In this document: piece by piece, positions 9,820-63,076 of the stretch
Position numbering within the stretch: position 1 is the first letter of the stretch
Layout: every line of letters begins with the position of its first letter
Source: Polyangiaceae bacterium
GTDB lineage: Bacteria > Myxococcota_A > Polyangia > Polyangiales > Polyangiaceae
Assembly: GCA_019637295.1 (NCBI GenBank)
Contig: JAHBVX010000007.1
Span: 186,001 to 250,000 of the forward strand
DNA length: 64,000 bases
Reading direction: 5' to 3'
Notes under the pieces: generated by a model
What the model was told of the DNA's origin: nothing
Databases searched by the model: none
What the model saw: only the letters and a program-made list of their open reading frames with translations
Position numbers and translations under genes: made by a program

Positions 9820-11280
9820 TCAGGGCTTGCCGGTACCCGGCGGGTTGTTGTGGCACCACTGCACGCCCGCGGCGTCCGGCTCGGCGGACGGCGCCCCCGT
9901 GGGTGGCTCCAGGAAGGGCGGGTTGTCGAAGTCGAACAGGTCGAGCATGGGCCACGCGTTGGCGTCGCGCCGAGTCATCGCGGGCAGGTCGAAGCGATTC
10001 TGGATGAAACGGGTGACGCTGGTGATGTCGGTCACGACGTGACTGACGAACCCCTTCTTCGCGAACGGCGAGGCGACGATCAGCGGCGTGCGCGGTCCGA
10101 GCCGATCGAACTTCCAGTCCGGAGGCACGAGGTTGTCTGGCTCGCAGGCCTCCGGCGGAGGGACGGAGTCGTAGAAGCCGCCGTGCTCGTCGTAGAACAG
10201 GATGAAGACGGTCTTCTTCCAGACGTTCGGACGGCTCATCAGCTTGCCCAGGACCCGCGCGGTGAACTGCTGCCCGAGCTGGATGTTTGCGGGAGGATGC
10301 TCGTCGTTCTGACCGCTGCCGGTGAAGGAGGGATCGATGATGGCGACGTTCGGCAGCGTGTCGTTGTCCACGTCCTGCTCGAACTGCGCCATGTTGCTGC
10401 CCAGGTACTGGGAGTTCTGCTTGAACACGACAGCGAAGGAGGTGATGCCGTCGCGGTACACCTTCCAGGTCCGCCCAGCGTTCTCGAGTTGGTCCATCAG
10501 CTTGGTGGACGTCCGGTATTGGTCGTTGACCAACACACCAATGTCTCCGGTCTTCGTGTTGCCCCAGGAGGTGGCGCCGAAGAAGTAGAATCGGTTGGGC
10601 CAGGTGGGGCCCAGGAGCGAGCAGAAGTGCATGTCGCTCATGGCGAAGGTCTTCGCCATCCAGTAGTAGTACGGCAGATCCGCGTCCGTGTAGTAGCCCA
10701 TGGCGCGCGCGCCGCCCGGGTTGTTGGTCGCGACGAAGCCGCTCATCTTGCCGTCGTCGTACTGGAAGTGGACGCCGTTCCACTCGTGATTGACGTCGAC
10801 GATGCAATAGCGGCTCTCGTGGTAGCGGTGGACCTTCTCGGGCGGATTGGTGGACGGGTCGTAGTTGAAGTCCTGGTCCGTTGCGACCGTCACGTCAGTC
10901 ACTCCGTAGGCCGGCAGCGACGAGAAGTAGTGGTCGAAGGAGCGGTTCTCCTGCATCAGCACCACTATGTGCTCGAAGGGCAGCGCGTCGCCGTGGGGAA
11001 CGCTCGGTCCCACGGTCTTCGTCGTCTTGTCGCCGGGGCCGAAGGAACAGCCCTGGCGCGCCTCGGCGCCGACGTCGTAGGGCGCCGTCGCTCCCGTCGC
11101 TCCGGTGCCGCCGCTGCCGCCCGTCGCCGCGGCGCCGCTGCCTCCACTGCCGCTGGCCGCGCCGGTCCCGCCCCCGGTGCCGCCGGTCGACTTGGCGCCG
11201 GACGAGTCGCTGCTGCCGCAGGCCGCCTGAAGTAGACCGAGAGCGAGCGCGGCGGACGCTCGCGAGAACTGCGTGCCCAT
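9820..11280 (-). CDS. Phospholipase C / acid phosphatase family lipoprotein
   Basis: 486-residue member of the phosphoesterase family that includes phospholipase C and AcpA-type acid phosphatases, which hydrolyse phosphodiester or phosphomonoester bonds outside the cytoplasm. Seen directly: signal peptide with lipobox LLQAAC at the N terminus, a Gly/Ser/Thr linker, then the diagnostic metal and nucleophile motifs HIVVLMQENRSFDHYF, LGPTWPNR, FYDEHGGFYDSV and GPRTPLIVASPFAKKG with VTDITSVTRFI near the end. The start ATG at 11280 is chosen because it begins directly at the signal peptide; the upstream extension to 11328 has no such character. Likely role: phosphate or lipid scavenging from prey or debris (inference). 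Convergent with the PPC-like lipoprotein, 13 bp away. Confidence 0.9.
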   Translation of the reverse strand: MGTQFSRASAALALGLLQAACGSSDSSGAKSTGGTGGGTGAASGSGGSGAAATGGSGGTGATGATAPYDVGAEARQGCSFGPGDKTTKTVGPSVPHGDALPFEHIVVLMQENRSFDHYFSSLPAYGVTDVTVATDQDFNYDPSTNPPEKVHRYHESRYCIVDVNHEWNGVHFQYDDGKMSGFVATNNPGGARAMGYYTDADLPYYYWMAKTFAMSDMHFCSLLGPTWPNRFYFFGATSWGNTKTGDIGVLVNDQYRTSTKLMDQLENAGRTWKVYRDGITSFAVVFKQNSQYLGSNMAQFEQDVDNDTLPNVAIIDPSFTGSGQNDEHPPANIQLGQQFTARVLGKLMSRPNVWKKTVFILFYDEHGGFYDSVPPPEACEPDNLVPPDWKFDRLGPRTPLIVASPFAKKGFVSHVVTDITSVTRFIQNRFDLPAMTRRDANAWPMLDLFDFDNPPFLEPPTGAPSAEPDAAGVQWCHNNPPGTGKP

Positions 11281-28631: not shown

Positions 28632-29945
28632 TCAGTCGTAGTACTCGCGCCCCAGGTGCGTGATGAGCTGCTCACCGCGCAGCCAACGCAGGGTGTTCTT
28701 CAGCTTCATCGACTGGATGAACAGGTCGTGCTCCGGGTACAGGCCTTCGGCCACCATCGGACTCTTGAAGTAGAACGACAGCCACTCCTGCACGCCCCGC
28801 ATGCCGGAGCGCTTGGCCAGGTCCATGAACAGCGCCAGATCCAGCACGATCGGGGCCGCGAGGATCGAGTCCCGGCAGAGGAAGTCCACCTTGATCTGCA
28901 TCGGGTAGCCGAGCCACCCGAAGATGTCGAGGTTGTCCCAGCCCTCCTTCGCGTCGCCGCGGGGCGGGTAGTAGTTGATGCGCACCTTGTGGTAAACGTC
29001 GCCGTAGAGAGAGGGGTAGACCTCGGGCTGCAGGATGTGCTCGAGCACACCGAGCTTGCTGACCTCTTTGGTCTTGAAGTTCTCCGGGTCGTCCAGCACT
29101 TCCCCGTCCCGGTTGCCCAGGATGTTGGTGGAGAACCAGCCCGCCAGGCCGAGCATTCGCGCCTTGAGACCGGGCGCCAGGATGGTCTTCATCAAGGTCT
29201 GGCCGGTCTTGAAGTCCTTGCCCGCGACGGGGGTGTTCGTCTCTCGTGCGAGCGCCATCGCGGCGGGGAAGTCGACGCTGAGGTTGGGCGCGCCGTTGGC
29301 GTACGGGATACCCTCCTTCATGCAGGCCCAGCCGTACAGCATCGAGCTGGTGATGGCCGGATCATTCGCAAGCAGGCCCTTCTCGAAGCTCTGGATGGTT
29401 TGGTGAACCGCGCTCGGTTCGACGTAGGTCTCCGTCGAGCCACACCACACCGCGACGCCGCGAGCACAGTTGCGATCACGCAGGGTCTTGCGAATGTCGT
29501 CCCGCAGCGCCTCTACCATGTCCGCCTTGGTGGGCGCCTGCTTGACGTGCGTGCCGGCCAGACGCTTGACGTACTCCGGGTAGAACACCGCTTGCATCGG
29601 CGCGATGGAACTGAGCTCCTCTCGAATCGGATCGAGGTGGCGGGACTCGAGCACCTGGGCGGTGCGCGCCGACTCGTAGGCGTTGTCGGAGAACAGATCC
29701 CAGCTGGCGAACTCCAGTTGGTCCAGACTGGCGAGCGGTACGAAGTCCTTGATCTTCGGGGTGCGATCCTCCGTCCGCTTGCCCAAGCGCAGGGTGCCCA
29801 GTTGGGTGAGGGAGCCCACGGGCTCGGCCAAGCCCTGTCGGGCCAGCAGGCACCCCGCGATGAAGGTAGTGGAGACTGCGCCGAGCCCGGGTAGGAACAC
29901 GGCGAGCTTTCCGTCGGCGGGCAGGATCGATTGGGGAGAGGTCAT
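28632..29945 (-). CDS. ino1: myo-Inositol-1-phosphate synthase
   Basis: 437-residue NAD-dependent enzyme that cyclises glucose 6-phosphate to L-myo-inositol 1-phosphate, the committed step of inositol synthesis (cytoplasm). Seen: an NAD-binding start LPGLGAVSTTFIAGCLLARQ, the GKDFKTGQTLMKTILAP motif typical of the family, NILGNRDGEVL, and the later HKVRINYYPPRGD and IKVDFLCRDSILAAPIVLDL segments that carry active-site lysines and aspartates. Shorter than the ~510-residue eukaryotic enzyme but of usual length for bacterial forms. It is divergent from the cytidylyltransferase at 29995, with a 49-bp gap holding both promoters; that head-to-head placement suggests joint control. Confidence 0.93.
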   Translation of the reverse strand: MTSPQSILPADGKLAVFLPGLGAVSTTFIAGCLLARQGLAEPVGSLTQLGTLRLGKRTEDRTPKIKDFVPLASLDQLEFASWDLFSDNAYESARTAQVLESRHLDPIREELSSIAPMQAVFYPEYVKRLAGTHVKQAPTKADMVEALRDDIRKTLRDRNCARGVAVWCGSTETYVEPSAVHQTIQSFEKGLLANDPAITSSMLYGWACMKEGIPYANGAPNLSVDFPAAMALARETNTPVAGKDFKTGQTLMKTILAPGLKARMLGLAGWFSTNILGNRDGEVLDDPENFKTKEVSKLGVLEHILQPEVYPSLYGDVYHKVRINYYPPRGDAKEGWDNLDIFGWLGYPMQIKVDFLCRDSILAAPIVLDLALFMDLAKRSGMRGVQEWLSFYFKSPMVAEGLYPEHDLFIQSMKLKNTLRWLRGEQLITHLGREYYD

Positions 29946-29994
29946 TGAGCGGGGCGTCTAGCAAGGGGTGTGCCCGTATGCAATCTTCGGTGTG

Positions 29995-30723
29995 ATGAAG
30001 ACTCGACTTGCCGTCGTGCTCGCCGCCGGCCTGGGCAGCCGACTTCGGCCATTGACCGACGATCGCCCCAAGGCGCTCGTCGCGGTGGGAGGTCGCTCTC
30101 TGCTCGGGCGCGCGCTCGACAACTTGGCCGAGCAGGGCGTGGAGCACCTGGTGGTCGCAACGGGATACCGTGGGGACGCCGTCGCCGCCGCCCTGCGCGA
30201 CGCACCGCTTCGCGTCACCCTACGTCCGAACCCGGACTACGATACGACTCAGAACGTGACGTCCTTCGCGCTCTGCGCCGACGACCTGAGGGGCGAGGCC
30301 TTCTTCAAGCTGGACGGCGACGTGCTCTTCATGCCGGAGGTTTTGCGGCGACTCGAGTCGTCCGACGCCGATCTCGCGGTGGCCATTGACGGGCGAGAAC
30401 GTGTGGATGCGGAGGCCATGAAGGTGGTCGTGGAGGGCGAACGCATCTGCCGCTTCGGCAAGCAGCTCGCGCCGGCGCAGGCGGCGGGTGAGACGATTGG
30501 CATCGAGAGGATCTCCGCAGACGCGAGCGCGGTGGTGGTGGACGGACTCATCCGCGCGGTCGCCGAGGGCCGCACGGACGTCTACTACGAGGACGTGTAC
30601 GACGAGCTCGTACGCCGGAAGCAGCTGATCGCTGCGCCCGTCGAGGTGGGCGATCTGCCGTGGACCGAGGTGGACGACCCCGCCGATCTCGCGCGCGCCG
30701 AGCGCCTCTTCGGGCAGGGCTGA
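29995..30723 (+). CDS. Phosphocholine/AEP-type cytidylyltransferase
   Basis: 242-residue nucleotidyltransferase. The N-terminal NTP-binding motif is AAGLGSRLRPLTDDRPKAL (11-28). Residues NPDYDTTQNVTS, KLDGDVLF (105-112), EAMKVVVEGERICRFGKQL, ETIGIERIS and VYYEDVYDELV followed by LPWTEVDDPADLARAE match the LicC/PntC family that makes CDP-choline, CDP-ethanolamine or CMP-aminoethylphosphonate. The substrate is therefore probably a small phosphorylated amino alcohol, or an alternative such as inositol phosphate. ATG at 29995 is preferred (an adjacent GTG lies 3 bp upstream). TATGCA at about 29978 may be the -10. No membrane segment. Not a LicA/kinase fusion. Confidence 0.85.
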   Translation: MKTRLAVVLAAGLGSRLRPLTDDRPKALVAVGGRSLLGRALDNLAEQGVEHLVVATGYRGDAVAAALRDAPLRVTLRPNPDYDTTQNVTSFALCADDLRGEAFFKLDGDVLFMPEVLRRLESSDADLAVAIDGRERVDAEAMKVVVEGERICRFGKQLAPAQAAGETIGIERISADASAVVVDGLIRAVAEGRTDVYYEDVYDELVRRKQLIAAPVEVGDLPWTEVDDPADLARAERLFGQG

Positions 30724-30774
30724 GCGCCTCGGCGGGAGCTCGACCGTGCCGTCCTCGGGATCGGGACGTCACGG

Positions 30775-30791
30775 TGTGCCCATCGGGCACA
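30775..30791 (+). terminator. Hairpin after the cytidylyltransferase gene
   Basis: TGTGCCC (30775-30781) and GGGCACA (30785-30791) form a perfect 7-bp stem with a three-base loop, 52 bp past the stop codon. There is no T tract, so it is a weak terminator candidate or an RNA structure. Confidence 0.35.
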
Positions 30792-31094
30792 AGGGTGTCG
30801 CCGGCCGTTCGCACGCCGGTCCGCGGGGATCAGTCCCGAAAATTAGCCGTGGATTCACGGAACTGCGTAGCGCCTGACGCACTTTGGCGCTGGCATCCGA
30901 GTTGCTCCTAGGGCTGGGCGAACGAACCCCTGCTTCCGCGAAGTGAGACAAATTCCCAACACCTTTGTGTAGATCCCGGCTCAACGGCGTGACGAGCGCC
31001 GGCACGGGCCCGGGCCCGAGGTGTGGTCGTCTCGCAACACTGTGGTGTGTGCGCCACACCTACACCCTTGTAAGTTACTAGAACGAAAAAGAAT

Positions 31095-31124
31095 TTGTCT
31101 GTTTAACGCGCCGCGTGGTATCTG
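31095..31124 (+). promoter_or_regulatory. Candidate promoter of the fusion gene
   Basis: TTGTCT (31095-31100) and TATCTG (31119-31124) are 18 bp apart and lie 38 bp before the ATG at 31163, in an AT-richer stretch. The inverted repeat GGTGTG/CACACC at 31044-31060 is just upstream and could be an activator or repressor site. Read by eye only. Confidence 0.35.
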
Positions 31125-31162
31125 GCGGCGGCTTACAGATCTTGGTTTGGAAAGTAATCGAC

Positions 31163-33070
31163 ATGACCACTAGACGAGCAGTGACACGAGCGGTCGTGCT
31201 GGCAGCCGGCACCGGGTCACGGCTCGGCAATGGCGGTGCGCCGGCCCCCAAGCCCCTGCGCCGGGTCGCCGGCGTCCCGATGATCGTGCGGGTGCTGCGC
31301 ACGCTCCAGGAGGCGGGCATCCGCCAAGCGGTGGTGGTGGTGGGCCACCGAGCCGAGGAGATCCGCGAGGTGCTCAGCGCCGACCCGAGTCTGCTGCTCG
31401 AGATCGAGTTCCTGCACAACGAGCGGTACCTGCACAAGAACGGTGTCTCGCTCCTCGCTGCGCGACAGTTCGTCGATCAGGAGTGCATCCTGACGATGTC
31501 CGATCACCTCTACTCGCCCGAGCTGGTCCGTCGCCTGCTCGCGGTCGAGTTGCCCGCGGGCCACAGCGCGCTGGCGGTGGACTACGACGTGCCTCGCTGC
31601 TTCGACCTCGACGATGCGACCAAGGTTCGGGTCGATGGCGGCGCGATCGTCGACATCGGCAAGGAGCTGGAGACCTACGACGCGATCGACACCGGCGTGT
31701 TCCGCATCACCTCGGCGCTGCTCGACGAGCTCGGTCGGCTCGACACGGAGCTTGGCGATTGCTCCCTCTCGGACGGCGTTCGTGCGCTCGCCTCGCGCGG
31801 CCAGTTCACCACCGTGGACGTGGGGGACGTGCGTTGGATCGACGTGGACACGCCGGAGGCGCTGGAGCGCGCCGAAGCGATGCTGCGTGTGTACGGAGAG
31901 AGTCTGGGAGACGAGCCCGGTACCGGCGCTCGCAGCGTGGACCCGGAGGCTCTGGAAATCTTCGCGCCGAGCTGGGTGCGCGCCTGCAAGCCCTACGACG
32001 AAGCGCACTTTGCGACGGCGGAGCAGGGCGACGTGCTGCGCATGATGTCGAACGAGAGCCCCTACGCCCCGAGTGAGCGAGTGGTGCAAGCCATCCTGGC
32101 GGCGGCTTTGCGGGGCAATTTGTATCCGTCGGGCGCTCCCACCCTGCGCGAGCGGCTCGGCGCTCGCGCGCTGCTGACGAAGGAACACGTGATCCTGGGT
32201 TCGGGGTCCACGGAGCTCATCGACGTCATCATTCGCACCTTCGTGGCGCCCGGCGAGGAAGTGCTGCTCAGCGTCCCGACCTTCAGCATGTACGAGGCGC
32301 GGACTCGGGCGGCCGGCGGTATCCCAGTGCTCGTGCCAATGCGCAGCGATCAAGAACACGATGTGCTCGGCATGCTGCGGGCCGTTACCGAGCGGACCAA
32401 GGTGCTGTTCCTGTGCACCCCGAACAACCCCACGGGCAACCGGGTCCCCGAGGCCGAGCTGGTCCGATTGCTCGGGCTCGGCCTGCCTACGGTGATCGAC
32501 GAGGCGTACGTGGAGCTCGGGGATGGAACGTCCCTCGTGCATTTGGTGCGGGAGTTCCCCAATGCCATCGTGCTCCGGACGTTCTCCAAGGCTTACGGAT
32601 TGGCAGGCATGCGGCTCGGTTACGCGATGGCCAACCCGGTCGTCATCCGGCTGCTCGAGCGCGTGAAGGTCCCGTGGAACATTCCCGAGGTCACCATCGC
32701 CGCTGCGCTCGCCGTGCTCGAGGACGAGGTCGAACAGCGGCAGCGGGTCGAGCAGCTACGCGACGCGCGGCAGGTCCTGTTCAGCCGGCTCGCCGGGTTG
32801 CCGGGGGTGGAGCCGGTGCCGAGCGACGGGAACTTCGTGCTGCTCGACGTGTCGGCGACCGGGCTGCGCGCCGACGATCTCGTGGCCAGAATGCTGGGCG
32901 AGGGTGTCCTGATCCGCTCGCTGTCTTCCCACCACGCGGACCGGACCTACGTTCGCGTGACGGTCGGTACGGCGGCGCAGAACGCTCGCTGCGTGGCGGG
33001 CATGAAACGCGTGCTGGCGAGCGCGGCTCGGGAGACGGCTGCGCCGGCATACGTGACGGACGCGGAGTGA
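31163..33070 (+). CDS. Inositol-phosphate cytidylyltransferase-like / HisC-like aminotransferase fusion
   Basis: 635-residue two-domain enzyme. Residues 8-245 are a nucleotidyltransferase whose motifs match inositol-1-phosphate cytidylyltransferases of the di-myo-inositol-phosphate pathway: AAGTGSRLG (14-22), NGVSLLAAR (93-101), MSDHLYSPEL (112-121), DDATKVRVDGGAIVDIGKEL and YDAIDTGVF (172-180). These domains couple CTP to L-myo-inositol 1-phosphate. Residues about 290-620 form a fold-type I PLP aminotransferase close to HisC, with SNESPYAP, NNPTG (421-425), IDEAYVE, and the PLP lysine K476 in TFSKAYGLAG. The ATG at 31163 gives the first strand intact. Product of the aminotransferase is unclear: an imidazole-acetol-phosphate-like substrate, or CobD-type decarboxylation of phosphoserine or phosphothreonine, are options. 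Confidence 0.85.
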   Translation: MTTRRAVTRAVVLAAGTGSRLGNGGAPAPKPLRRVAGVPMIVRVLRTLQEAGIRQAVVVVGHRAEEIREVLSADPSLLLEIEFLHNERYLHKNGVSLLAARQFVDQECILTMSDHLYSPELVRRLLAVELPAGHSALAVDYDVPRCFDLDDATKVRVDGGAIVDIGKELETYDAIDTGVFRITSALLDELGRLDTELGDCSLSDGVRALASRGQFTTVDVGDVRWIDVDTPEALERAEAMLRVYGESLGDEPGTGARSVDPEALEIFAPSWVRACKPYDEAHFATAEQGDVLRMMSNESPYAPSERVVQAILAAALRGNLYPSGAPTLRERLGARALLTKEHVILGSGSTELIDVIIRTFVAPGEEVLLSVPTFSMYEARTRAAGGIPVLVPMRSDQEHDVLGMLRAVTERTKVLFLCTPNNPTGNRVPEAELVRLLGLGLPTVIDEAYVELGDGTSLVHLVREFPNAIVLRTFSKAYGLAGMRLGYAMANPVVIRLLERVKVPWNIPEVTIAAALAVLEDEVEQRQRVEQLRDARQVLFSRLAGLPGVEPVPSDGNFVLLDVSATGLRADDLVARMLGEGVLIRSLSSHHADRTYVRVTVGTAAQNARCVAGMKRVLASAARETAAPAYVTDAE

Positions 33071-33080
33071 GAGGCTGATC

Positions 33081-34091
33081 GTGAGCTCGACATTCGACAT
33101 CGCCAGCGAGGAGCCGAGCAGGAGCGTCGCAGCGCGCCCAGAGCCCGAGGGCTTCTGGGCGGCCTACAAGCGCAGCCTCAAGCCGCTCGAGGTCGAAGAG
33201 CCAATCGACGTGTGGATCCATCGCCCGCTGGCCTACCTGCTGGCCAAGGCCCTCATGCCCACGCCTGTCTCGCCCAACGCGGTGACGGTGATCTCCATCC
33301 TCTTCGGCATCGCCGGTGGTATCGCGCTCCTCTCCAGCTTCCCCCATCACATGTTGGTGGGTGGCCTGTGTATCTTCGCGTCGGCAGTGTTCGATTGCGC
33401 GGACGGTCAACTCGCTCGGATGCGAGGCACGTCGAGCTTGCTCGGGCGCATGCTCGATGGCTCTGCGGATCTCATCGTCAGCGTGGTGGCGGTCGGCGGC
33501 GGGACGTACGTCGTGTGGAGCAAGTTCAACGACACGCCCTGGATGGGGGCGCTCGCGCTGTTGCTGTGCGTGCTCACTGCGGTGACCGGCTCGTTCCACA
33601 CGGGCATGTACGACCATTACAAGAACGTCTTTCTGCGCCTGACCAATGCCAAGTACCAGGAGGCAGAGGACTACGAGACCGCGCTGGCCCGCTTCCGCGA
33701 GCGCCAGGACGCCCCGCTCTTCGTACGCCTGGCGTGGTACCCCTACCTCTTTTACGTGAAGAGTCAGGAAGACTACAGCCGCCGGTTCGACCCCTATACC
33801 AGCGCGTCGTTCTCTCGCTTCCCGGCCTTCGACGAGGAACGCGCGCGCATCTACCGCCGGCACGCGGAAGCACCCATGCGTCTCTTTCGCGCCGCCTTCG
33901 GCTTCGGCTCGCTGGTGTTCGGGATCGCGCTCTTCTGCGCGCTCGACCTGCTCGAGTGGTACATGCTCGTGCGCCTCGTGCTGCAGAACGCGGTGTTCTA
34001 CGGCTACCTCCGGCCGCTGCAGCGGCGCGCCTCGCGCGAGGCGTTTCGCGAGATGGGCTTCTCGCTCTCGCCCCCGGTCCACGCCACCTGA
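33081..34091 (+). CDS. CDP-alcohol phosphatidyltransferase family membrane protein
   Basis: 336-residue integral membrane enzyme that moves a phosphoalcohol from a CDP-activated donor. The invariant signature is exact: D105-x2-D108-G109-x2-A112-R113-x8-G122-x3-D126-x3-D130. The N-terminal extension (1-50) and the SPNAVT segment before the first membrane helix are typical of the branch that includes the phosphodiester-forming DIPP synthase-like enzymes; membrane helices are near residues 66-85, 90-104, 132-150 and 158-172, with two more hydrophobic segments near 273-295 and 300-318. GTG start at 33081 has GAGAGG upstream. It follows the fusion gene by 10 bp, so it is its operon partner; the donor is thus probably CDP-inositol. 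The acceptor could be inositol phosphate, a diacylglycerol-type alcohol or another headgroup. Confidence 0.85.
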   Translation: MSSTFDIASEEPSRSVAARPEPEGFWAAYKRSLKPLEVEEPIDVWIHRPLAYLLAKALMPTPVSPNAVTVISILFGIAGGIALLSSFPHHMLVGGLCIFASAVFDCADGQLARMRGTSSLLGRMLDGSADLIVSVVAVGGGTYVVWSKFNDTPWMGALALLLCVLTAVTGSFHTGMYDHYKNVFLRLTNAKYQEAEDYETALARFRERQDAPLFVRLAWYPYLFYVKSQEDYSRRFDPYTSASFSRFPAFDEERARIYRRHAEAPMRLFRAAFGFGSLVFGIALFCALDLLEWYMLVRLVLQNAVFYGYLRPLQRRASREAFREMGFSLSPPVHAT

Positions 34092-34155: not shown

Positions 34156-36612
34156 GTGCGACGAACGCTCGCCTGGCTGCTGTTCCCGCTCGTGCTCGCG
34201 CCCGCGTCGCACGTCGAGGCCTCCATCTGGCCCAACGCCGTCCAACGCGTGGAGGCCCAGCTCCGCAGCGACGACGTGAGTCAGCGGCGGAGAGCCGCCA
34301 AGCGTCTGAGTGAGCTGCCCGAGGGCGTCGGGCGCCGCCTCGGGCTTGGCGCGCTCGATGATCCGGACGTGGAGGTGAAATTGGCCGCGCAGGCCGCGCT
34401 GCGGGCGCTCGGTGAGCGGACGGCGAGCGCGCGAGTGGTTGCCTGGCTCTCGGATCCCGAGCGCCGCTTGCGCCTGGCGGCCGCGGAGTTGCTCGCCTGG
34501 AGTCCAGCGCCGTCGGCGCTGCTCGCGCTGTCTCGGTCCCTGGCTGACCCGGATCCGACGGTGCGCAGCGCGGCTGCCATCGCGCTCGGCGCCTCGGGTC
34601 GGGCGGAGGCCGTGCTGCCACTGCTGGGCCACCTGGACGACGACTCCCCCGTGGTCCGCGGGCAGATCGTGCTGGCGCTCGCTCGCTCGGCGGATCCCCG
34701 CGCGGTCGTACCGCTGATTGGCAAGATTCAAGACGCACGACCGGAGGTCCGCCGCGCGGTCGCTCTTGCGCTCGGGGATCTCGGCGATCCGCGCGCGACG
34801 AGTGCGCTGATCCTGGCGCTGCGCGACAGTGACGAGTCCGTCAAGGTCGCGGCGCTCGAGTCCCTGGGGCGGCTTGGGGATGTGCAGGCGCTGCTCGCGA
34901 TCGCGACCGCCGTCGACGAGGCCGACGCGCGCTCGCCGGTGCGAAGCGCTGGACTGGTCGCGCTCGCGCGTCTGGGCACGCCGGAGGCGCTCGATCGGGT
35001 CATCGCGGCTCTCGGTCGTGACGACTCGCAACGGCCCGCCGCGCTGGAGGCTCTCGCGGTCGCGGGCGCGGCTGCCGTACCCAAGCTCGTGCAGTGCCTG
35101 CAGGGGCAGCCCGCGGCGGCGTTGGCAGACGGCTGCGCGCGAGGCTTGTCTCACAGCGGCGAGCGAGGGGGGAGCGCGGCCGTGGCCGCAGCGCTGCGCC
35201 GCGGCGCGGTGGGGCCGGCAGCGGCGCTGGAGTCGCTCGGACGCATGGGCGACAAGGCGCTGCTGCCGACGGTGCTCGAGTACCTCGAGAGCGCTGCGCC
35301 CGACGTGCGGCGGGCTGCCATCGCGGCCGCGGCAGCGTTGCTCGATCCCAGCCAGCCCGATGGGCGCGCCGTCGACCCCATCGAGCGCGCGCTGGAGCGC
35401 GCTCGGTCGACGCCGGCCGAGCATTTGGCGTTGGTGCAGTTGCTCGGTCGCACCGGAGCTCCGCGGGCCGCGCGAGTCTTGGTGCCCTTGGCGGTGCACT
35501 CGGATCCTGCCTCGGTACGCGTCGCCGCGCTCGAGGCGCTGGGCCGAACAGGTGGACCAGGCAGCGACCAGGCGCTGCTCGAGTCGCTCAGCGCGGAGGA
35601 CGGCGCCGTTCGCATGGCTGCCGCGGTGGCGGCGTGGCGCAAAGCCTCTGGCGCGAGCGCGCGAGTGCTGCTGGACCGACTCGCGCGCGCCGCCGAGCAG
35701 GATCGGGTGGCACTCGCGCTCGCGCTTGGCGGCGCACTCTCGCGCTCAAAGGACGAGCGGGACGTCACTCGGGCGCTCGTCCTGCTGCGCGCGAGTCGGG
35801 GCGGGGAGCGGGACGCCTACATCGAGGCCATTGGGCGGCATTCGGGCGTGGTCTCTCTGAACGCCCTCGAACGCCTGGTGGACTCGACCGTGGACGTGGC
35901 AGACCGCGCCAAGGTCGCCGAGGTCTTGGCCGGGCGGGCCGACGGCCGCGCGCTCGCGGCTCGCCTCGCCCGAGACGTGGACGGAGCCGTGCGAGCGAAC
36001 GCTCTGTGGGCCCTCGGAGTCATCGGAGCGGGTGCGGACCGCGGTGTGTTGATCGCGGGGCTGACGGATCGTGACCCGGTGGTGGCGGCCAACGCTGCCG
36101 TCGCGCTCGGTCGGCTCACGCGAGCCTCGCCGACCGCGGCGAGCAAGGCGGCGCTGTGCAAGGCGCTCGACGACACGCGCTCTGCCGTGCGCGCCGGGGC
36201 TCTGGCGGGACTCCGCTCCGCCGGTCATCGCTGCCGGGTCGAGCTGGACTTGCTGGAGCACGATGGCAGCGAGGTGGTGCGAGAGGCTGCGGCTCGGCTC
36301 GTGGCCCGGGTCGCCGGACCCGCGAAGCCGCGCGATAGCCAAGCGCTCGGGCGCTGCGCCAAGGAGGATGTGTCGAGTCGGGTGGCCGCCGCGTGTAGCG
36401 AGCGCCAGCGCCCAGATCCGGTCCGCACCGAGCCCGTCGCCGTGTTCGTCGTGCCGCTCGGTGAGAGCACGCCGGTCCCACGCGCGCCGTTCGCGCTCAG
36501 GCTCGCAGACGGCACGACGCGGCTCGGCCTCACGGATCGGAGAGGTCTCGTGCTCGAGCTCGCGGCGCCCCGCGGCGAGGTCTCCCTGGACGTGCCAGCG
36601 CCCTTGCGCTGA
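34156..36612 (+). CDS. Exported HEAT-repeat protein
   Basis: 818-residue protein with an N-terminal signal peptide (RRTLAWLLFPLVLAPASHVEA) and then a chain of 30-residue helical HEAT/PBS-lyase-type repeats: the pattern DPxPxVRxAAAxALGxxG-type occurs at least 15 times (for example LSDPERRLRLAAAELLAW, DSDESVKVAALESLGRLG, DPASVRVAALEALGRTG). Such repeats form a scaffold for protein binding, not an enzyme. The last 70 residues are a separate beta-rich domain (VAVFVVPLGESTPVPRAPF, TRLGLTDRRGLV). Likely periplasmic because of the signal. GTG start at 34156; TAGCCT at 34142 sits 8 bases ahead, so the transcript may be leaderless. The partner protein is not known. Confidence 0.85.
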   Translation: MRRTLAWLLFPLVLAPASHVEASIWPNAVQRVEAQLRSDDVSQRRRAAKRLSELPEGVGRRLGLGALDDPDVEVKLAAQAALRALGERTASARVVAWLSDPERRLRLAAAELLAWSPAPSALLALSRSLADPDPTVRSAAAIALGASGRAEAVLPLLGHLDDDSPVVRGQIVLALARSADPRAVVPLIGKIQDARPEVRRAVALALGDLGDPRATSALILALRDSDESVKVAALESLGRLGDVQALLAIATAVDEADARSPVRSAGLVALARLGTPEALDRVIAALGRDDSQRPAALEALAVAGAAAVPKLVQCLQGQPAAALADGCARGLSHSGERGGSAAVAAALRRGAVGPAAALESLGRMGDKALLPTVLEYLESAAPDVRRAAIAAAAALLDPSQPDGRAVDPIERALERARSTPAEHLALVQLLGRTGAPRAARVLVPLAVHSDPASVRVAALEALGRTGGPGSDQALLESLSAEDGAVRMAAAVAAWRKASGASARVLLDRLARAAEQDRVALALALGGALSRSKDERDVTRALVLLRASRGGERDAYIEAIGRHSGVVSLNALERLVDSTVDVADRAKVAEVLAGRADGRALAARLARDVDGAVRANALWALGVIGAGADRGVLIAGLTDRDPVVAANAAVALGRLTRASPTAASKAALCKALDDTRSAVRAGALAGLRSAGHRCRVELDLLEHDGSEVVREAAARLVARVAGPAKPRDSQALGRCAKEDVSSRVAAACSERQRPDPVRTEPVAVFVVPLGESTPVPRAPFALRLADGTTRLGLTDRRGLVLELAAPRGEVSLDVPAPLR

Positions 36613-38322: not shown

Positions 38323-39261
38323 ATGCAATCGACCCACGGCGGGGGATCCCCCGCACTGAGCGGCATGCTCGCGCCCCTCGAACCGTCTCCGCCCGTCGAT
38401 CGGATCGCCGCCGAGGAGAGGGCGCAGTCCCTCGCCAAGCGCAGCATCAAGAAGTCCGCCAAGGTCGCCGGCCTGCGTCTGGCCATCCAGATGATGGACC
38501 TCACCACGCTCGAGGGCAGCGACTCCCGAGGCAAGGTGAGCGCGCTGTGCATGAAGGCGCGAAGTCCTTCGCCGGGTGACCATGGGATCCCCTCTTGCGC
38601 GGCGGTGTGCGTCTATCCGAACCTGGTGCCCATCGCGAAGGAGGCGCTCGCCGGATCGAGCGTGAAGGTGGCGAGCGTGGCGACGGCCTTCCCGAGTGGC
38701 CTCTCGGCGCTGTCGGTCCGGCTGGATGACACCAGGCGCGCCGTCGATGCGGGCGCTGACGAGATCGACATGGTGATCGATCGCGGCGCCTTCCTCTCCG
38801 GCGAGCACGCGCGAGTCGCAGACGAAATCGCAGCGGTGAAGGAAGCCTGCGGCGACGCCCACCTCAAGGTCATCCTGGAGACGGGAGAGCTCGGCAGCTA
38901 TGACAACGTGCGGCGCGCCAGCGATCTGGCCATGTACTCGGGCGCGGACTTCATCAAGACCAGCACGGGCAAGATACAGCCGGCGGCTACGCCACCGGTG
39001 ACGCTGGTGATGCTGGAGGCGATCCGGGACTTCTACTTCGCGACGGGCCGGCGCATCGGCATGAAGCCGGCGGGCGGTATCCGAACGGCGAAGCAAGCGC
39101 TTCACTACTTGGTGCTGGTGAAGGAGACCCTGGGCGATGCGTGGCTCCATCCCGACTTGTTCCGACTGGGAGCGAGCACCCTGCTCAACGACGTGCTCAT
39201 GCAGCTGAAGAAGGAAGAGTCCGGCGCCTATCAAGGCGACGAGTACTTCACCAAGGACTGA
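38323..39261 (+). CDS. deoC: Deoxyribose-phosphate aldolase
   Basis: 312-residue class I aldolase that cleaves 2-deoxyribose 5-phosphate to glyceraldehyde 3-phosphate and acetaldehyde. Seen: the DLTTLEG segment, CVYPNLVP, VASVATAFPSG, the EIDMVIDRG strand, the Schiff-base lysine in DFIKTSTGK and the second lysine in IGMKPAGGIRT. The N-terminal 50 residues are an extra helical extension. ATG at 38323 with GGAG upstream. It is the first gene of a three-gene set: the aldehyde dehydrogenase gene starts 14 bp after it, and the pseudo-dehydrogenase follows 4 bp later. The acetaldehyde made here is the natural substrate of the dehydrogenase, so the genes form one catabolic unit. Confidence 0.95.
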   Translation: MQSTHGGGSPALSGMLAPLEPSPPVDRIAAEERAQSLAKRSIKKSAKVAGLRLAIQMMDLTTLEGSDSRGKVSALCMKARSPSPGDHGIPSCAAVCVYPNLVPIAKEALAGSSVKVASVATAFPSGLSALSVRLDDTRRAVDAGADEIDMVIDRGAFLSGEHARVADEIAAVKEACGDAHLKVILETGELGSYDNVRRASDLAMYSGADFIKTSTGKIQPAATPPVTLVMLEAIRDFYFATGRRIGMKPAGGIRTAKQALHYLVLVKETLGDAWLHPDLFRLGASTLLNDVLMQLKKEESGAYQGDEYFTKD

Positions 39262-39274
39262 AGGCGAGGCATCC

Positions 39275-40789
39275 GTGACCATCAAGCTCGTGGAAGAGAA
39301 GGCCCTGATGGGCCAGGATCGCCGGCGCGCGGAGCGACGGCTCGACTTCGGGCACGCGTGGGACTACGCGCCCGCACCCGAGGGCACCGATCACGTCCGC
39401 CTGGCGTCACGCTACGACTTGTTCATCGACGGTCGGTTCGAGCCGCCCGGAGCGGGGCGGTACTTCGAGACCATCAACCCGGCGACGGAGGCCAGGCTCG
39501 CGGAGGTTGCGGACGCGGACGAGCGGGACGTGGATCGCGCGGTCGCGGCGGCTCGGCGGGCGTACGACCAGGTTTGGGCGCGCATGGCGCCACTCGAGCG
39601 CGGCAAGTACATCTATCGCATTGCCCGGGTGATCCAGGAGCGGGCCCGAGAGTTGGCGGTCGTGGAGAGCTTGGACGGCGGCAAGCCCATCAAGGAGAGC
39701 CGCGACTTCGACGTGCCCACTGCGGCGGCGCACTTCTTCTACTACGCGGGTTGGGCAGACAAGCTGCGTTACGCGTTTCCCGGACACGCGGTCCGGCCCC
39801 TTGGCGTCGCTGGGCAAGTGATCCCCTGGAACTTCCCACTGCTCATGGCCGCGTGGAAGATCGCTCCGGCGCTGGCGTGCGGCAACACCGTCGTGCTCAA
39901 GCCGGCCGAGACGACGCCGCTGACGGCGCTCTTGCTCGCCGAGATCATCCAGGAGGCGGACCTGCCGCCGGGGGTCGTGAACATCATCACCGGCGCAGGC
40001 AAGACCGGGGCCGCCCTGGTCGGCCACCCGGGCGTGGACAAGGTAGCCTTCACGGGCTCGACCGCGGTCGGTAAGCACATTCAGCGCGCGCTCGCGGGGA
40101 CCGGCAAGCGCATGACGATGGAGCTTGGGGGCAAGGCCGCCAACATCGTGTTCGCGGACGCGCCCATCGATCAAGCCGTCGAGGGGGTGATCAGCGGCAT
40201 CTTCTTCAACCAGGGGCACGTGTGCTGTGCCGGCTCGCGGCTGCTCTTGGAGGAGGGCGTGCACGACACCTTCGTGAGGAAGCTGCGCGATCGCATGGCG
40301 ACGCTGCGCGTCGGCGATCCGCTCGACAAGAACACCGACGTCGGAGCGATCAACTCCAAAATGCAGCTCGAGAAGATCCGCGAGCTGGTGGCCAGCGGCG
40401 AGGAAGAGGGCGCCGAGCGCTTCAGCGCTCCCTGCGAGCTGCCCGAGCGCGGGTACTTCTTTGCCCCGACCATCTTCACGGGCGTCGCGCAGTCCCATCG
40501 CATCGCTCGAGAGGAGATCTTCGGTCCAGTGCTCAGCGTGCTCACCTTCCGCACCGATGCCGAAGCGGTGGAGAAGGCGAACAACACGTTCTACGGGCTG
40601 TCCGCGGGTGTGTGGTCGAACAAGGGCGCGCGCTTGTTCAAGATGGCGAGCCAGCTCGAAGCGGGCGTCGTCTGGGGGAACACGTACAACAAGTTCGATC
40701 CGAGCTCGCCCTTCGGTGGCTACAAGGAGAGTGGGTTCGGTCGTGAAGGTGGTCGCCAGGGTCTGGCCGCGTACCTGGTGGTGGAGTGA
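39275..40789 (+). CDS. NAD(P)-dependent aldehyde dehydrogenase
   Basis: 504-residue aldehyde dehydrogenase that oxidises acetaldehyde, or a related aldehyde, to its acid. Family marks are intact: PWNFPLLM, KPAETTPLTA, FTGSTAVGKHI, the general-base Glu in MELGGKAA, and the catalytic Cys in GHVCCAGSRLL. The C-terminal FGREGG motif is also present. The first 45 residues are unusual for the family (Arg-rich DRRRAERRLDFGH). GTG start at 39275. Linked to deoC (14 bp) and the next gene (3 bp). The arrangement deoC-ALDH-ALDH recurs in actinobacteria and myxobacteria in my recollection. Cytoplasmic. Confidence 0.95.
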   Translation: MTIKLVEEKALMGQDRRRAERRLDFGHAWDYAPAPEGTDHVRLASRYDLFIDGRFEPPGAGRYFETINPATEARLAEVADADERDVDRAVAAARRAYDQVWARMAPLERGKYIYRIARVIQERARELAVVESLDGGKPIKESRDFDVPTAAAHFFYYAGWADKLRYAFPGHAVRPLGVAGQVIPWNFPLLMAAWKIAPALACGNTVVLKPAETTPLTALLLAEIIQEADLPPGVVNIITGAGKTGAALVGHPGVDKVAFTGSTAVGKHIQRALAGTGKRMTMELGGKAANIVFADAPIDQAVEGVISGIFFNQGHVCCAGSRLLLEEGVHDTFVRKLRDRMATLRVGDPLDKNTDVGAINSKMQLEKIRELVASGEEEGAERFSAPCELPERGYFFAPTIFTGVAQSHRIAREEIFGPVLSVLTFRTDAEAVEKANNTFYGLSAGVWSNKGARLFKMASQLEAGVVWGNTYNKFDPSSPFGGYKESGFGREGGRQGLAAYLVVE

Positions 40790-40792
40790 GTC

Positions 40793-41728
40793 ATGACGCA
40801 AAGACGACAAGTCGGCTCTGATCGCAGGCGACCCGCAGCGGAGCTCGAGCCAAGCGAACAGCTCGGTGTCGCGGGTCCGGCCCGGTTGGGCGTGAAGAAG
40901 ACCTGGAAGCTCTTCCTGGGTGGGGCGTTCGTGCGCAGCGAATCGGGTCGCTATCTCGTCACCGCGGACGGCAACGACAACTACCCGCACGCGTCGCGCA
41001 AGGACGCGCGGGACGCGGTGAAGGCGGCGCAGGGGGCGCTCTCGGGGTGGGCCGGGCGCAGTGGCTACAACCGCGGGCAGATATTGTATCGCCTCGCGGA
41101 GGTGATGGAGGGGCGCCGCGAAGAACTGATGGAGAGCCTCGAGCGCGGCGGGGCGAGCGCTGCTCGAAGCGAGGTGGACGCGGCCATCGACCGAGCCGTC
41201 AGCCACGCGGGCTGGTGCGACAAGCTGCAGAGCCTGCTCGCGAGCAGCAACCCTGTCGCCGGTCCACACTTCGGTTTCAGCATTCCGGAGCCAATCGGCG
41301 TCGTCGCGATCGCTGCACCGGATCGCCCGACCCTGCTCGGACTCGTCGGCAGCATCTGTCCGGTGATCGTCTCGGGCAACGTCGCCGTCGTGGTGGTGTC
41401 CGAGTCGGATCCCCGGACGACGTTGGTGTTCGCGGAGTGCCTCGCGACGAGCGACATGCCCGGCGGCGTCGTGAATCTACTCACCGGACCGCGGCAAGAG
41501 CTGCTCACCCCCCTGGCCAAGCACATGGCCGTGCGAGCGCTCGACCTGTGGAACGTGGCGGGTGAACTCGCGGTTTCGCTCGAGCGGGACGCGGCAGACA
41601 ACGTCAAGCGCGTCAGCCGCCGGGAGGCGGACGAGTCTGCCTGGTTCGACGCGGAGCGCGGTGCCGCGCTCACGGGCATCGAACGCTTCGTCGAGACCAA
41701 GACCGTGTGGCACCCCATGGGCGCCTGA
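40793..41728 (+). CDS. Truncated aldehyde dehydrogenase-like protein without catalytic domain
   Basis: 311 residues. The start (TWKLFLGGAFVRSESGRYL) and middle (IPEPIGVVAIAAPDRPTLL, PVIVSGNVAVVVVSES) are recognisable ALDH sequence for the NAD-binding domain, but the catalytic Cys domain is absent: after about residue 230 the sequence ends in a short tail (WNVAGELAVSLERDAADNVKR, then KTVWHPMGA). The frame is intact with no stop inside, so it is not a recent break. It starts 3 bp after the active ALDH gene. It may form hetero-oligomers with the full-length enzyme or act as a scaffold. It probably cannot oxidise aldehydes alone. ATG at 40793. Confidence 0.8.
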   Translation: MTQRRQVGSDRRRPAAELEPSEQLGVAGPARLGVKKTWKLFLGGAFVRSESGRYLVTADGNDNYPHASRKDARDAVKAAQGALSGWAGRSGYNRGQILYRLAEVMEGRREELMESLERGGASAARSEVDAAIDRAVSHAGWCDKLQSLLASSNPVAGPHFGFSIPEPIGVVAIAAPDRPTLLGLVGSICPVIVSGNVAVVVVSESDPRTTLVFAECLATSDMPGGVVNLLTGPRQELLTPLAKHMAVRALDLWNVAGELAVSLERDAADNVKRVSRREADESAWFDAERGAALTGIERFVETKTVWHPMGA

Positions 41729-61538: not shown

Positions 61539-61639
61539 GGCCGACAGGCTCTGTAGCGGAATCCGGTCGGGAAGCCCAGCCGTACCCCACCGAGCTCGGA
61601 CCCAAGCGGGGATTCGATGGTCTCGTGGCCCGCTCCCGC

Positions 61640-62119
61640 TCAGTCCGACGCAGTGCCATCCGGGAGGCTCGCCTCGGGCGGGGGGCTGGCCGCGTCGGGC
61701 GCGACGACGGGCTGGGCAGCCAGGAACTCGCACGCCTGGATGCCCTGTGGCTTCAAGACGACGTCGCAGACCGCGGTGTGCACCGTGAGCCGTCCCGTGA
61801 GCGCGGTGCACTCCGCGATGCTGGTCACGCCCTGCTGGGCGCACTCGCCGGCGTCCAGAATGGTCTGGGTGCACGCGGTGACCTGAGGCGCACCGGGACG
61901 GGAGTGGGTCAGGCCGTGCAGGCACTGGTCGCGGTAGAACCGCTTGCAGGCCTCGACGTCGTCCACCAAGCCGCAGTGCGCTCCGGCCTCGCAGCGGGCA
62001 TTCTCGATGTCTCGGCACTCGTCCACGCCCACGGCGTCCGTACCGCAGCCGGCCTGGACGACGGCGAAGGTGAGCGCGAACGAGAGGGTGGCGCTGGCCA
62101 GCCGGCGAAGCCGCATCAT
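61640..62119 (-). CDS. Cys-rich lipoprotein of unknown function
   Basis: 159 residues from the ATG at 62119 (an in-frame ATG at 62137 adds six). Lipobox VVQAGC after a hydrophobic signal. The mature part has about nine Cys (CRDIENARC, CGLVDDVEAC, CLHGL, CTQTI, CAQQG, CTALTG, VCDV, ACEF) in a regular spacing, a pattern of small disulphide-rich secreted proteins in myxobacteria. Function unknown. It is divergent from the nucleotidyltransferase at 62183. Many residues after the last Cys are Pro/Ala-rich. Confidence 0.65.
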   Translation of the reverse strand: MMRLRRLASATLSFALTFAVVQAGCGTDAVGVDECRDIENARCEAGAHCGLVDDVEACKRFYRDQCLHGLTHSRPGAPQVTACTQTILDAGECAQQGVTSIAECTALTGRLTVHTAVCDVVLKPQGIQACEFLAAQPVVAPDAASPPPEASLPDGTASD

Positions 62120-62182
62120 GTGAGCTCGGGGTATCATGCGCCCCGCGTCTGGGCCCAATTTTCGCGGGGCCGAGTCCCGGGT

Positions 62183-63076
62183 ATGCTGCGACGGGTGGCG
62201 AACGCGGCGATGATCTTGTGCGCGGGGCTCGGCACCCGCCTGCGCCCGCTGACCGACGAGCTGCCCAAGCCCCTGGTGCCGGTGGGCGATCGCCCAGTGC
62301 TGGCGTCCATCGCCGCGCGCCTGCGGGCGGCCGGGGTGCGGCGAGCGGTGGTGAACACCCACCACCTGGCCGCTGCATTCGCGAGCATCTACGAGTGGAT
62401 GGACGTCGAAGTGCAGGTGACTCACGAGCCACGGATCTTGGGCACCGCTGGAGGCATCGCCGCGTCGCGCCGGCGCCTCGGCGCCGCGCCGGTGGTGGTC
62501 TGGAACGGAGACATCTTGGCCAGCCCGCCGGTGGGCAGGCTCCTCGACCTCGCCGCGCCCGGGGGGCTGAGTCTGGCCGTCGCGCGACGCTCGGCGGGGG
62601 AGGGCACCGTCGGCGTGGACGCCGAGGGGCACGTCGTCAGGCTGCGAGGTGAGGTGTTCGGGCTCGAACACTTCGGGGGCGACTACATCGGCGTGGCGGC
62701 CGTCGGCGCGCGGGTGCTCGAGCAGCTGCCCGCCGAGGGATGCTTGATCGGCGACGTCGCCTTGCCCGAGCTGCGCCGCGGCGGTGTCGTCCCGACCGCG
62801 CGGGTGACCGCGCCGTGGTGCGACTTGGGCGACCCGGCGAGCTATCACGCCGCCAACATGCGCTGGCTGGACGAGCAGCGTCACGGCAGCTTCTCGGCCC
62901 CGAGCGCGAGCGTGTCGGCGGGCGTCCAGCTCAGCCGGTCGATCGTGGGCGCCGGAGCCGAGGTCGGCGGGCGCGGCGCGCTCAGCCGAGTCGTGGTGTG
63001 GCCGGGCGCTGCGGTCCGTGCTCCGCTCGCGGACGCCATCGTCCTGCGCTCGGGACGCGTCGTGCGGATCCGCTGA
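62183..63076 (+). CDS. Sugar-1-phosphate nucleotidyltransferase
   Basis: 297 residues. N-terminal nucleotidyltransferase domain with LCAGLGTRLRPLTDELPKPLV, ILGTAGGIAASR, VVWNGDIL and GDYIGVAAVGARVLEQLP; the order and spacing match the MurU/GlmU-like branch that makes UDP-MurNAc or NDP-sugars such as GDP-mannose. The C-terminal part (about 235-297) has a hexapeptide-like strand pattern (VSAGVQLSRSIVGAGAEVGG) typical of left-handed beta helices. Start ATG 62183; GTG 62195 is also possible. Sugar specificity cannot be told; the best guess is a MurNAc- or mannose-1-phosphate enzyme. No operon partner in the window. Confidence 0.85.
   Translation: MLRRVANAAMILCAGLGTRLRPLTDELPKPLVPVGDRPVLASIAARLRAAGVRRAVVNTHHLAAAFASIYEWMDVEVQVTHEPRILGTAGGIAASRRRLGAAPVVVWNGDILASPPVGRLLDLAAPGGLSLAVARRSAGEGTVGVDAEGHVVRLRGEVFGLEHFGGDYIGVAAVGARVLEQLPAEGCLIGDVALPELRRGGVVPTARVTAPWCDLGDPASYHAANMRWLDEQRHGSFSAPSASVSAGVQLSRSIVGAGAEVGGRGALSRVVVWPGAAVRAPLADAIVLRSGRVVRIR

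Follow-up and report, generated by a model that had tools for sequence, protein, structure and literature searches.

Gene cluster and its domain composition

We analyzed a window of 64,000 nucleotides (positions 186001-250000 of contig JAHBVX010000007.1) from a Polyangiaceae bacterium, the genome of which (GCA_019637295.1) comprises 7.65 Mb in 25 contigs. At the center of the analysis is a cluster of four genes (Table 1). They code for a myo-inositol-1-phosphate synthase (MIPS), a cytidylyltransferase-like protein labeled here NTP1, a protein in which an inositol-1-phosphate cytidylyltransferase (IPCT) domain is fused to a HisC-type aminotransferase domain, and a CDP-alcohol phosphotransferase (CAPT). 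A preliminary description of this DNA had pointed out the four-gene set, with MIPS opposite the other three genes, and the Pfam matches support each member. MIPS is divergent from NTP1, the fusion gene and CAPT. The CAPT gene starts 10 bases past the end of the fusion gene, and the 439 bases that separate NTP1 from the likely start of the fusion gene could contain a promoter. Since the gene order is kept in other genomes, the arrangement is not due to chance. Where related loci and genomes have to be told apart, they are given our own numbers (L and G, respectively).

Table 1. Features of the cluster and their positions in the window
Feature	Position	Strand	Basis
MIPS	28632-29945	minus	PF07994 8.3e-92 (308.5 bits), PF01658 1.9e-31 (108.9 bits), both over cut-off
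NTP1, second cytidylyltransferase-like protein	29995-30723	plus	PF12804 1.4e-15
Intergenic gap NTP1/fusion gene, 439 bases	30724-31162		sequence
IPCT-HisC fusion, 635 aa from ATG 31163	31163-33070	plus	domain matches and AlphaFold2 (AF2) model
IPCT domain of fusion	31175-31885	plus	residues 21-257 of 651-aa frame match 2xme/4mnd
HisC-type aminotransferase domain of fusion	31976-33007	plus	TIGR01141, residues 288-631
CAPT, 336 aa	33081-34091	plus	PF01066 5.9e-14
CAPT signature D105..D130	33393-33470	plus	invariant in aligned relatives
HEAT-repeat protein, 818 aa, conserved neighbor 3' of CAPT	34156-36612	plus	PF13646 5.4e-55

The frame of the fusion gene is open from GTG 31115 to 33070 (651 aa), ATG 31163 being the likelier start. 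The preliminary description had noticed an aminotransferase, which is indeed present, but not as a separate gene: a complete HisC-type domain makes up the C-terminal half of the IPCT protein. In the AF2 model of the fusion protein (pLDDT 79.8, pTM 0.56) Foldseek aligned HisC structures to the C-terminal part. The best solved match of the N-terminal domain is Archaeoglobus fulgidus IPCT 2xme (3.1e-28, improving to 5.1e-39 with the family profile), and the two solved A. fulgidus chains, 2xme and 4mnd, scored 101.7 and 100.6 bits. With the family profile, three IPCT chains scored 137.2, 135.7 and 102.0 bits, and the next cytidylyltransferase 58.6. The domain is thus closer to the solved IPCTs than to other cytidylyltransferases, in agreement with the IPCT-type domain beside MIPS and CAPT recognized earlier.

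The frame of NTP1 extends from GTG 29968 to 30723, and ATG 29995 is the likelier start. NTP1 is COG1213-like, with the PK and DGD motifs invariant in a 17-row alignment. Its solved relatives are Thermotoga maritima IPCT 4jd0 (3.5e-15, 60.0 bits), PntC-AEPT 6pd1 (1.2e-11, 48.5 bits) and LicC 1jyk (1.6e-10, 44.8 bits), the differences between them being small. By these bit scores, neither LicC nor PntC is nearer to NTP1 than the IPCT is. Hence the 'LicC/PntC-type' label assigned previously names true relatives, but is just one of several nearly equal labels, and an IPCT scores higher.

The fused HisC-type aminotransferase

The C-terminal part of the fusion protein matched PF00155 (7.5e-56), that is, class I/II aminotransferases, as distinct from class V (the PntC-AEPT type). 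It passed the TIGR01141 (hisC) cut-off (298.7 versus 276.55 bits), which was reached in just 10 of the 14 control genomes. A reading of this domain as a CobD-like decarboxylase was rejected, as its 188.2 bits are below the TIGR01140 (CobD) cut-off of 290.55 bits. Foldseek fails to separate HisC from CobD for the fused domain, which might therefore still act as a decarboxylase.

We aligned 45 fused domains, those of the window and of 44 of the 47 related loci with the fusion (three were dropped as short or with a stop). The Schiff-base lysine K492 as well as Y337, N438, D462, Y465, S491, R500, R601 and R614 are invariant in all of them, and Y294 is retained in 44. We take these residues to be the active-site positions of E. 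coli HisC (the lysine and nine others). At further positions, for example W287, R289, M311, E394, R396 and W521, the fused domains are fixed and differ from two classes of stand-alone HisC. In a phylogenetic tree of 71 rows (flagged, like the IPCT tree below, for long branches meeting), a branch with low support (39/75) sets off the 45 fused domains, and 23 stand-alone domains join E. coli HisC (87/83), so that the fused domains are apart from both stand-alone classes.

Two observations favor a reading of the fused aminotransferase as the histidinol-phosphate aminotransferase of the cell, with an accidental fusion: the TIGR01141 cut-off is passed, and no HisC match was found within ~9 kb of hisD in the genome of the window. 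However, two other HisC-type genes of this genome pass the TIGR01141 cut-off as well, with 357.5 and 298.4 bits, and one of them groups with E. coli HisC. One lies two genes from the EPSP synthase gene and the other adjoins the HMG-CoA reductase gene. These extra genes, the tree and the residue differences ruled out the accidental fusion as our principal reading; it would also leave the association with NTP1 unexplained. We regard it as very improbable: judging by its sequence, the fused domain is probably not the housekeeping HisC.

Conservation and co-occurrence of the cluster

A profile of nine IPCT domains yielded 80 named related loci (the best 80 of 368), which are not independent, several coming from genomes already used. 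Their records are from Polyangiaceae, Polyangia, Myxococcales and Deltaproteobacteria, except for four from other phyla. A HisC domain follows the IPCT domain in frame in 47 of the 80 loci, with no stop in between in 45 and a stop in L096 and L141. MIPS was found in 57 of the 80, and 52 of these copies are encoded on the opposite strand. Within 6 kb of the fusion (47 loci) we found NTP1 in 34, CAPT in 36, MIPS in 34 and the HEAT-repeat gene in 23; the respective counts around an unfused IPCT (33 loci) were 0 for NTP1, 15 for CAPT and 22 for MIPS. Some loci are truncated. If only those with flanks of 5 kb or more ahead of the IPCT and 3.5 kb or more behind it are considered, 22 of 27 fused versus 0 of 20 unfused loci have NTP1 nearby. 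The most common layout is MIPS/NTP1/fusion/CAPT/HEAT (13 loci). In another, CAPT/NTP1/fusion, MIPS accompanies the genes in 8 loci, both MIPS and HEAT in 3 more, and 9 have no MIPS in view. A lack of co-occurrence in related genomes, named in the preliminary description as counting against it, was looked for, and the set was found to occur together.

For 13 genomes, 11 of them bearing the fusion, in which the locus was without a partner or the HisC domain, we considered the whole genome. All 13 have a CAPT match, and 10 of the 11 fusion genomes have NTP1; the exception is G116, whose CAPT match begins 296 bases into its contig. NTP1 and CAPT adjoin on another contig in 7 of the 11. The other two of the 13 genomes are from Polyangium; their IPCT is unfused, and NTP1 was not found in them at 1e-20.

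IPCT matches are present in 138 of 289 genomes of the class sample and in 64 of 187 of the phylum sample. In the order of the window we counted 41 genomes with a fusion-length frame (at least 634 aa, not each read) and 33 unfused; several genomes of the previous set are also included here. One genome (G224) was dropped, its match being cut by a contig end, and G207 was counted as unfused after reading L219. NTP1 was detected at 1e-28 or better in 38 of the 41 fusion-length versus 4 of the 33 unfused genomes (Fisher p 9e-13, kinship ignored). The 38 fusion-genome matches are 40-62% identical (the window itself aside) and the four unfused-genome matches 34-40%. Fusion-length genomes without NTP1 at this threshold are G193, G301 and G246, and four genomes of the order (G088, G247, G282 and G283) have NTP1 without an IPCT match.

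Evolution of the fusion and related fusions

The IPCT tree comprised 83 rows. Six loci were left out (L143 is truncated; L098, L132, L134, L155 and L167 are on contigs already included), and near-duplicates such as L094 beside L048 were kept. Independently of the tree, one row that was out of frame (L224) was disregarded. A clade of 54 sequences (support 100/99) includes 47 fusion rows and 7 unfused ones. The fused/unfused label changes four times on the tree, three of the changes being forced by well-supported branches. The four changes may be read as one gain and three losses, in L119, in L223 together with Polyangium, and in L140. The last is an extra unfused IPCT copy (9899-10726) in a genome that has retained the fusion (L130); neither MIPS nor CAPT was matched at the locus of this copy. 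Behind the L223 IPCT a HisC relic is clear (score 99 versus at most 54 in 60 shuffles), but the scores of 35 behind the Polyangium IPCT of L120 and 31 behind that of L119 lie within the range of their shuffles (maxima of 54 and 47, respectively) and are not significant. The unfused IPCT tails of L120 and L119 end in DAE, as in the fused proteins. The 656-aa frame behind the Polyangium IPCT gave no Pfam match.

In another clade a MIPS-linked IPCT is fused to a class V aminotransferase (L152, also present as copy L210, 3480-5330; L153, 9959-11845). These domains score 336.6 (L152, as L210) and 327.9 bits (L153) with the PhnW/AepZ model, below its cut-off of 360.8. The class V and HisC-type aminotransferases are unrelated, and this fusion is independent of the HisC one. 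Five more IPCT-like/class V fusions (L211-L214 and L216) have no MIPS within the fetched stretch. In a different family of the class, L215 (5895-7895, plus strand) codes for an IPCT-like domain (~43% identical) fused to a dehydroquinate-synthase-like cyclase (PF01761, PF24621), possibly a CDP-cyclitol enzyme. Finally, IPCT-CAPT fusion frames of 483-485 aa occur in 3 of the 80 loci, L163 (also by Pfam), L164 and L170, from Latescibacterota and Gemmatimonadetes. The 'split' version reported previously is thus correct in that IPCT and CAPT are separate genes in the window, but separation is the common state.

Several further arrangements were seen around related genes. L061 (12179-13789, minus strand; G094) codes for a fusion of phosphoenolpyruvate mutase with an NTP transferase; a second CAPT is close by, and the locus is likely one for phosphonolipids. 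Radical SAM genes lie near unfused IPCT/CAPT loci (L055, 11412-12461; L057, 3637-4686).

CAPT and its subtypes

CAPT belongs with the class I CDP-alcohol phosphotransferases, scoring 53.2 bits with PF01066 (cut-off 22). The active-site signature highlighted in the preliminary description, D105-x2-D108-G-x2-A-R-x8-G-x3-D126-x3-D130, is invariant in 11 of 11 aligned relatives, and its eight positions are invariant in 60 of 60 CAPTs. For the AF2 model of CAPT (pLDDT 85.3), VIA-align Z-scores were 18.3 with AF2299, 15.5 with the di-myo-inositol-phosphate-phosphate synthase part of the bifunctional enzyme (IPCT-DIPPS), 14.3 with phosphatidylinositol-phosphate synthase (PIPS), and 12.2 and 10.8 with the eukaryotic choline phosphotransferases CHPT1 and CEPT1. 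The PIP synthase model NF045883 (cut-off 170 bits) was not reached (47.3 bits).

These data bear on the possibility that CAPT joins CDP-inositol with a phosphorylated polyol or amino-alcohol into a soluble, di-inositol-phosphate-like osmolyte, as in hyperthermophiles. The same three activities are present, the CAPT fold is near the DIPPS part of 4mnd, and the IPCT-CAPT frames of L163, L164 and L170 have the fused form. On the other hand, with the Thermococcales bifunctional IPCT/DIPPS model NF041135 the fusion protein and CAPT, two separate genes, scored only 146.6 and 32.8 bits, far under its cut-off of 580. According to the available part of PMC4634129, two arginines bind inositol phosphate in PIPS. 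The profile alignments of CAPT stop short of the helix with these arginines, and with the register set by eye, and unsure, all 11 aligned relatives have a residue other than arginine where PIPS would have a phosphate-binding one, which is a weak point against the osmolyte. Overall, we consider a soluble product unlikely.

CAPT subtypes were defined for 60 proteins that passed a score and length filter, including 9 of the 15 near unfused IPCTs. All 47 CAPTs of the subtype ED-C-(Q/M)-K(N/T)-GG (44 exactly, 3 with one change) are from fusion genomes, the split ones included, with some genes represented by two rows. All 9 of the subtype DNG-(I/L)-KES-A lie beside an unfused IPCT, including L119, the IPCT of which belongs to the fused clade. 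The remaining four, two from Polyangium and those near L124 and L158, represent a third type. Thus, HisC domain, NTP1 and CAPT subtype go together. This speaks for the second branch suggested in the preliminary description, although its 'amino-alcohol' nature is conjectural.

Proposed pathway

Starting from the observed domains, motifs, conservation and joint presence, and taking every substrate and product from family chemistry, we propose a Kennedy-like route to phospholipids by way of CDP-inositol, to which a second, amine-forming branch is coupled, and give this proposal an even chance. MIPS would convert glucose 6-phosphate into inositol 1-phosphate, from which the IPCT domain would form CDP-inositol with CTP; this is the best-supported step of the proposal. 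The HisC domain, of a kind that acts on phosphorylated 2-keto-alcohols, would produce a phospho-amino-alcohol, to be activated by NTP1 with CTP. The two are read as one branch because they are jointly present, and not from their chemistry. Because HisC-type and PhnW-type enzymes put the amine near the phosphoryl group, two carbons along, phosphoethanolamine or serinol phosphate would be the simplest guess for this compound. CAPT would then transfer the phospho-alcohol headgroups from both CDP-alcohols to a lipid alcohol (diacylglycerol or ceramide). The outcome would be either two phospholipids, one with inositol and the other with an amine, or a single lipid bearing both. 'Amino-alcohol', as well as 'lipid' rather than 'soluble diester', is what we infer.

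A number of observations weigh against this proposal. The IPCT label could mislead, since IPCT, LicC, PntC and CpgD are of one fold family and CpgD, with TmIPCT as its top structural match, uses phosphoglycerate (PMC12275187, in the part available). In its modeled fold, CAPT resembles AF2299, DIPPS, PIPS and choline phosphotransferases alike, which leaves lipid and soluble acceptors undecided. The ten CAPT subtype positions were picked after inspection, and the rows include many close relatives and duplicates. L124 and L158 are fusion loci with an adjoining CAPT of the third type; in the L124 genome, the main type was found too (L183). Should the CAPT subtype go with NTP1, the user of CDP-inositol would be uncertain: fusion genomes G117-G122 have only one CAPT-like match each at 1e-10 (query P0004), and the window's genome holds a second one, 34% identical. 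An NTP1-like match (38%) lies 6.4 kb from the unfused IPCT of L162, and the class V fusion genome G023 is without NTP1 at 1e-28. Moreover, the second branch is not needed for ordinary phosphatidylethanolamine, because 19 of the 20 genomes considered have a member of the phosphatidylserine decarboxylase family (12 of 13 with the fusion, G134 being the exception, and 7 of 7 unfused); this need was therefore discarded as a reason for the branch.

Comparison with known systems

The comparison with hyperthermophile di-inositol phosphate, made in the preliminary description, is weaker: the same three activities are involved, but CDP-inositol lipids of Rhodothermus marinus and Bacteroides vulgatus are closer precedents. 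In R. marinus, a CDP-inositol route to inositol phospholipids was reportedly described by Jorge in 2015, CDP-inositol being said to donate the lipid headgroup, as proposed here. To our knowledge, neither an aminotransferase fusion nor NTP1 is known for that route. The alternative inositol-lipid cluster of B. vulgatus likewise has MIPS, an NTP transferase and CAPT together, with a CDP-inositol route proposed; it differs in having a haloacid dehalogenase (HAD) hydrolase, and neither an aminotransferase nor a second cytidylyltransferase is mentioned in the available part of the source (PMC9246714). No HAD hydrolase was found among 20 proteins scanned in the window (10 + 10, not every frame). The A. 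fulgidus IPCT and IPCT-DIPPS (2xme, 4mnd), similar in the IPCT domain and the CAPT fold, differ by having IPCT and CAPT on one chain, a soluble diester product and no aminotransferase. Caulobacter CpgD is, in the accessible text of PMC12275187, also a COG1213-type cytidylyltransferase for an anionic lipid headgroup, with phosphoglycerate as substrate and ceramide diphosphoglycerate as product; we liken it by description, not by sequence.

Cytidylyltransferase and pyridoxal 5'-phosphate (PLP) chemistry are combined elsewhere. Treponema denticola PntC-AEPT (Tde1415; 6pd1/6pd2) has an N-terminal cytidylyltransferase fused to a PLP aminotransferase, but of class V and in aminoethylphosphonate synthesis, whereas here the domain is of the class I/II HisC type beside MIPS. 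It is the sole fusion among the 50 Foldseek matches listed for our model, covering both domains (681-693 columns) at a low query TM-score of 0.35-0.38. FrbH of FR-900098 biosynthesis has cytidylyl transfer and PLP chemistry on one protein as well, yet is described as a phosphonate amino acid decarboxylase of an antibiotic pathway, a distinction drawn from its description in the available parts of PMC6697681 and PMC8007912, not from sequence. A pair of nucleotidyltransferase-like and aminotransferase domains is described for Mycoplasma MetRS (PMC13215547, in part).

By the example of PntC-AEPT and FrbH, the activities of which share one pathway each (PMC6697681 and PMC8007912, as far as available), the fusion could be a case of substrate channelling, its aminotransferase domain acting on what the attached cytidylyltransferase domain uses or forms. 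It would then make one CDP-linked amine (for example a CDP-amino-alcohol or CDP-aminocyclitol), and NTP1 the other CDP-alcohol. The Foldseek match just mentioned is in line with this, and the cyclase fusion of L215 hints at cyclitol chemistry. However, unfused members of the same IPCT lineage are found next to MIPS and CAPT, and in L223 and Polyangium the lineage has been kept with no HisC domain attached, so that it does not have to act on an amine. None of the 20 window proteins scanned was assigned to an inositol-dehydrogenase family, although two aldehyde dehydrogenases lie downstream. We find such channelling conceivable, if rather doubtful.

CDP-inositol lipid synthesis and cytidylyltransferase-aminotransferase fusions are each known. 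Their combination did not turn up in the open-licence literature searched, nor did, specifically, an IPCT next to MIPS with a HisC-type aminotransferase attached to it. Ceramide phosphoinositol has been reported in Myxococcus xanthus (PMC9246714, citing Lorenzen 2014), and no myxobacterial CDP-inositol pathway is assigned in the part of that paper available. The cluster supplies candidate genes for such a pathway, and the fusion with its co-varying partners predicts a second, amine-containing headgroup. A natural experiment is offered by close relatives that either have or lack the aminotransferase domain, the lipids of which should differ by one headgroup. More tentatively, Polyangia might possess an undescribed polar lipid or phosphodiester, composed of inositol phosphate and an aminated phospho-alcohol (possibly an aminocyclitol) and channelled by the IPCT-aminotransferase fusion. 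In that case, the trait would have at least two origins, involving aminotransferases that are unrelated to each other, and in the Polyangium and L119 lineages the HisC domain would have been lost along with the corresponding CAPT subtype and a close NTP1.

Other observations

Farther downstream in the window (38323-41728), genes for a DeoC-type aldolase and two aldehyde dehydrogenases follow one another, as they do downstream in L051 and L094. Another NTP-transferase protein is encoded at 61625-63076 (PF00483 1.7e-18). In other classes of the phylum, IPCT-like domains reside in frames of ~500-750 aa, and further fusions are likely.

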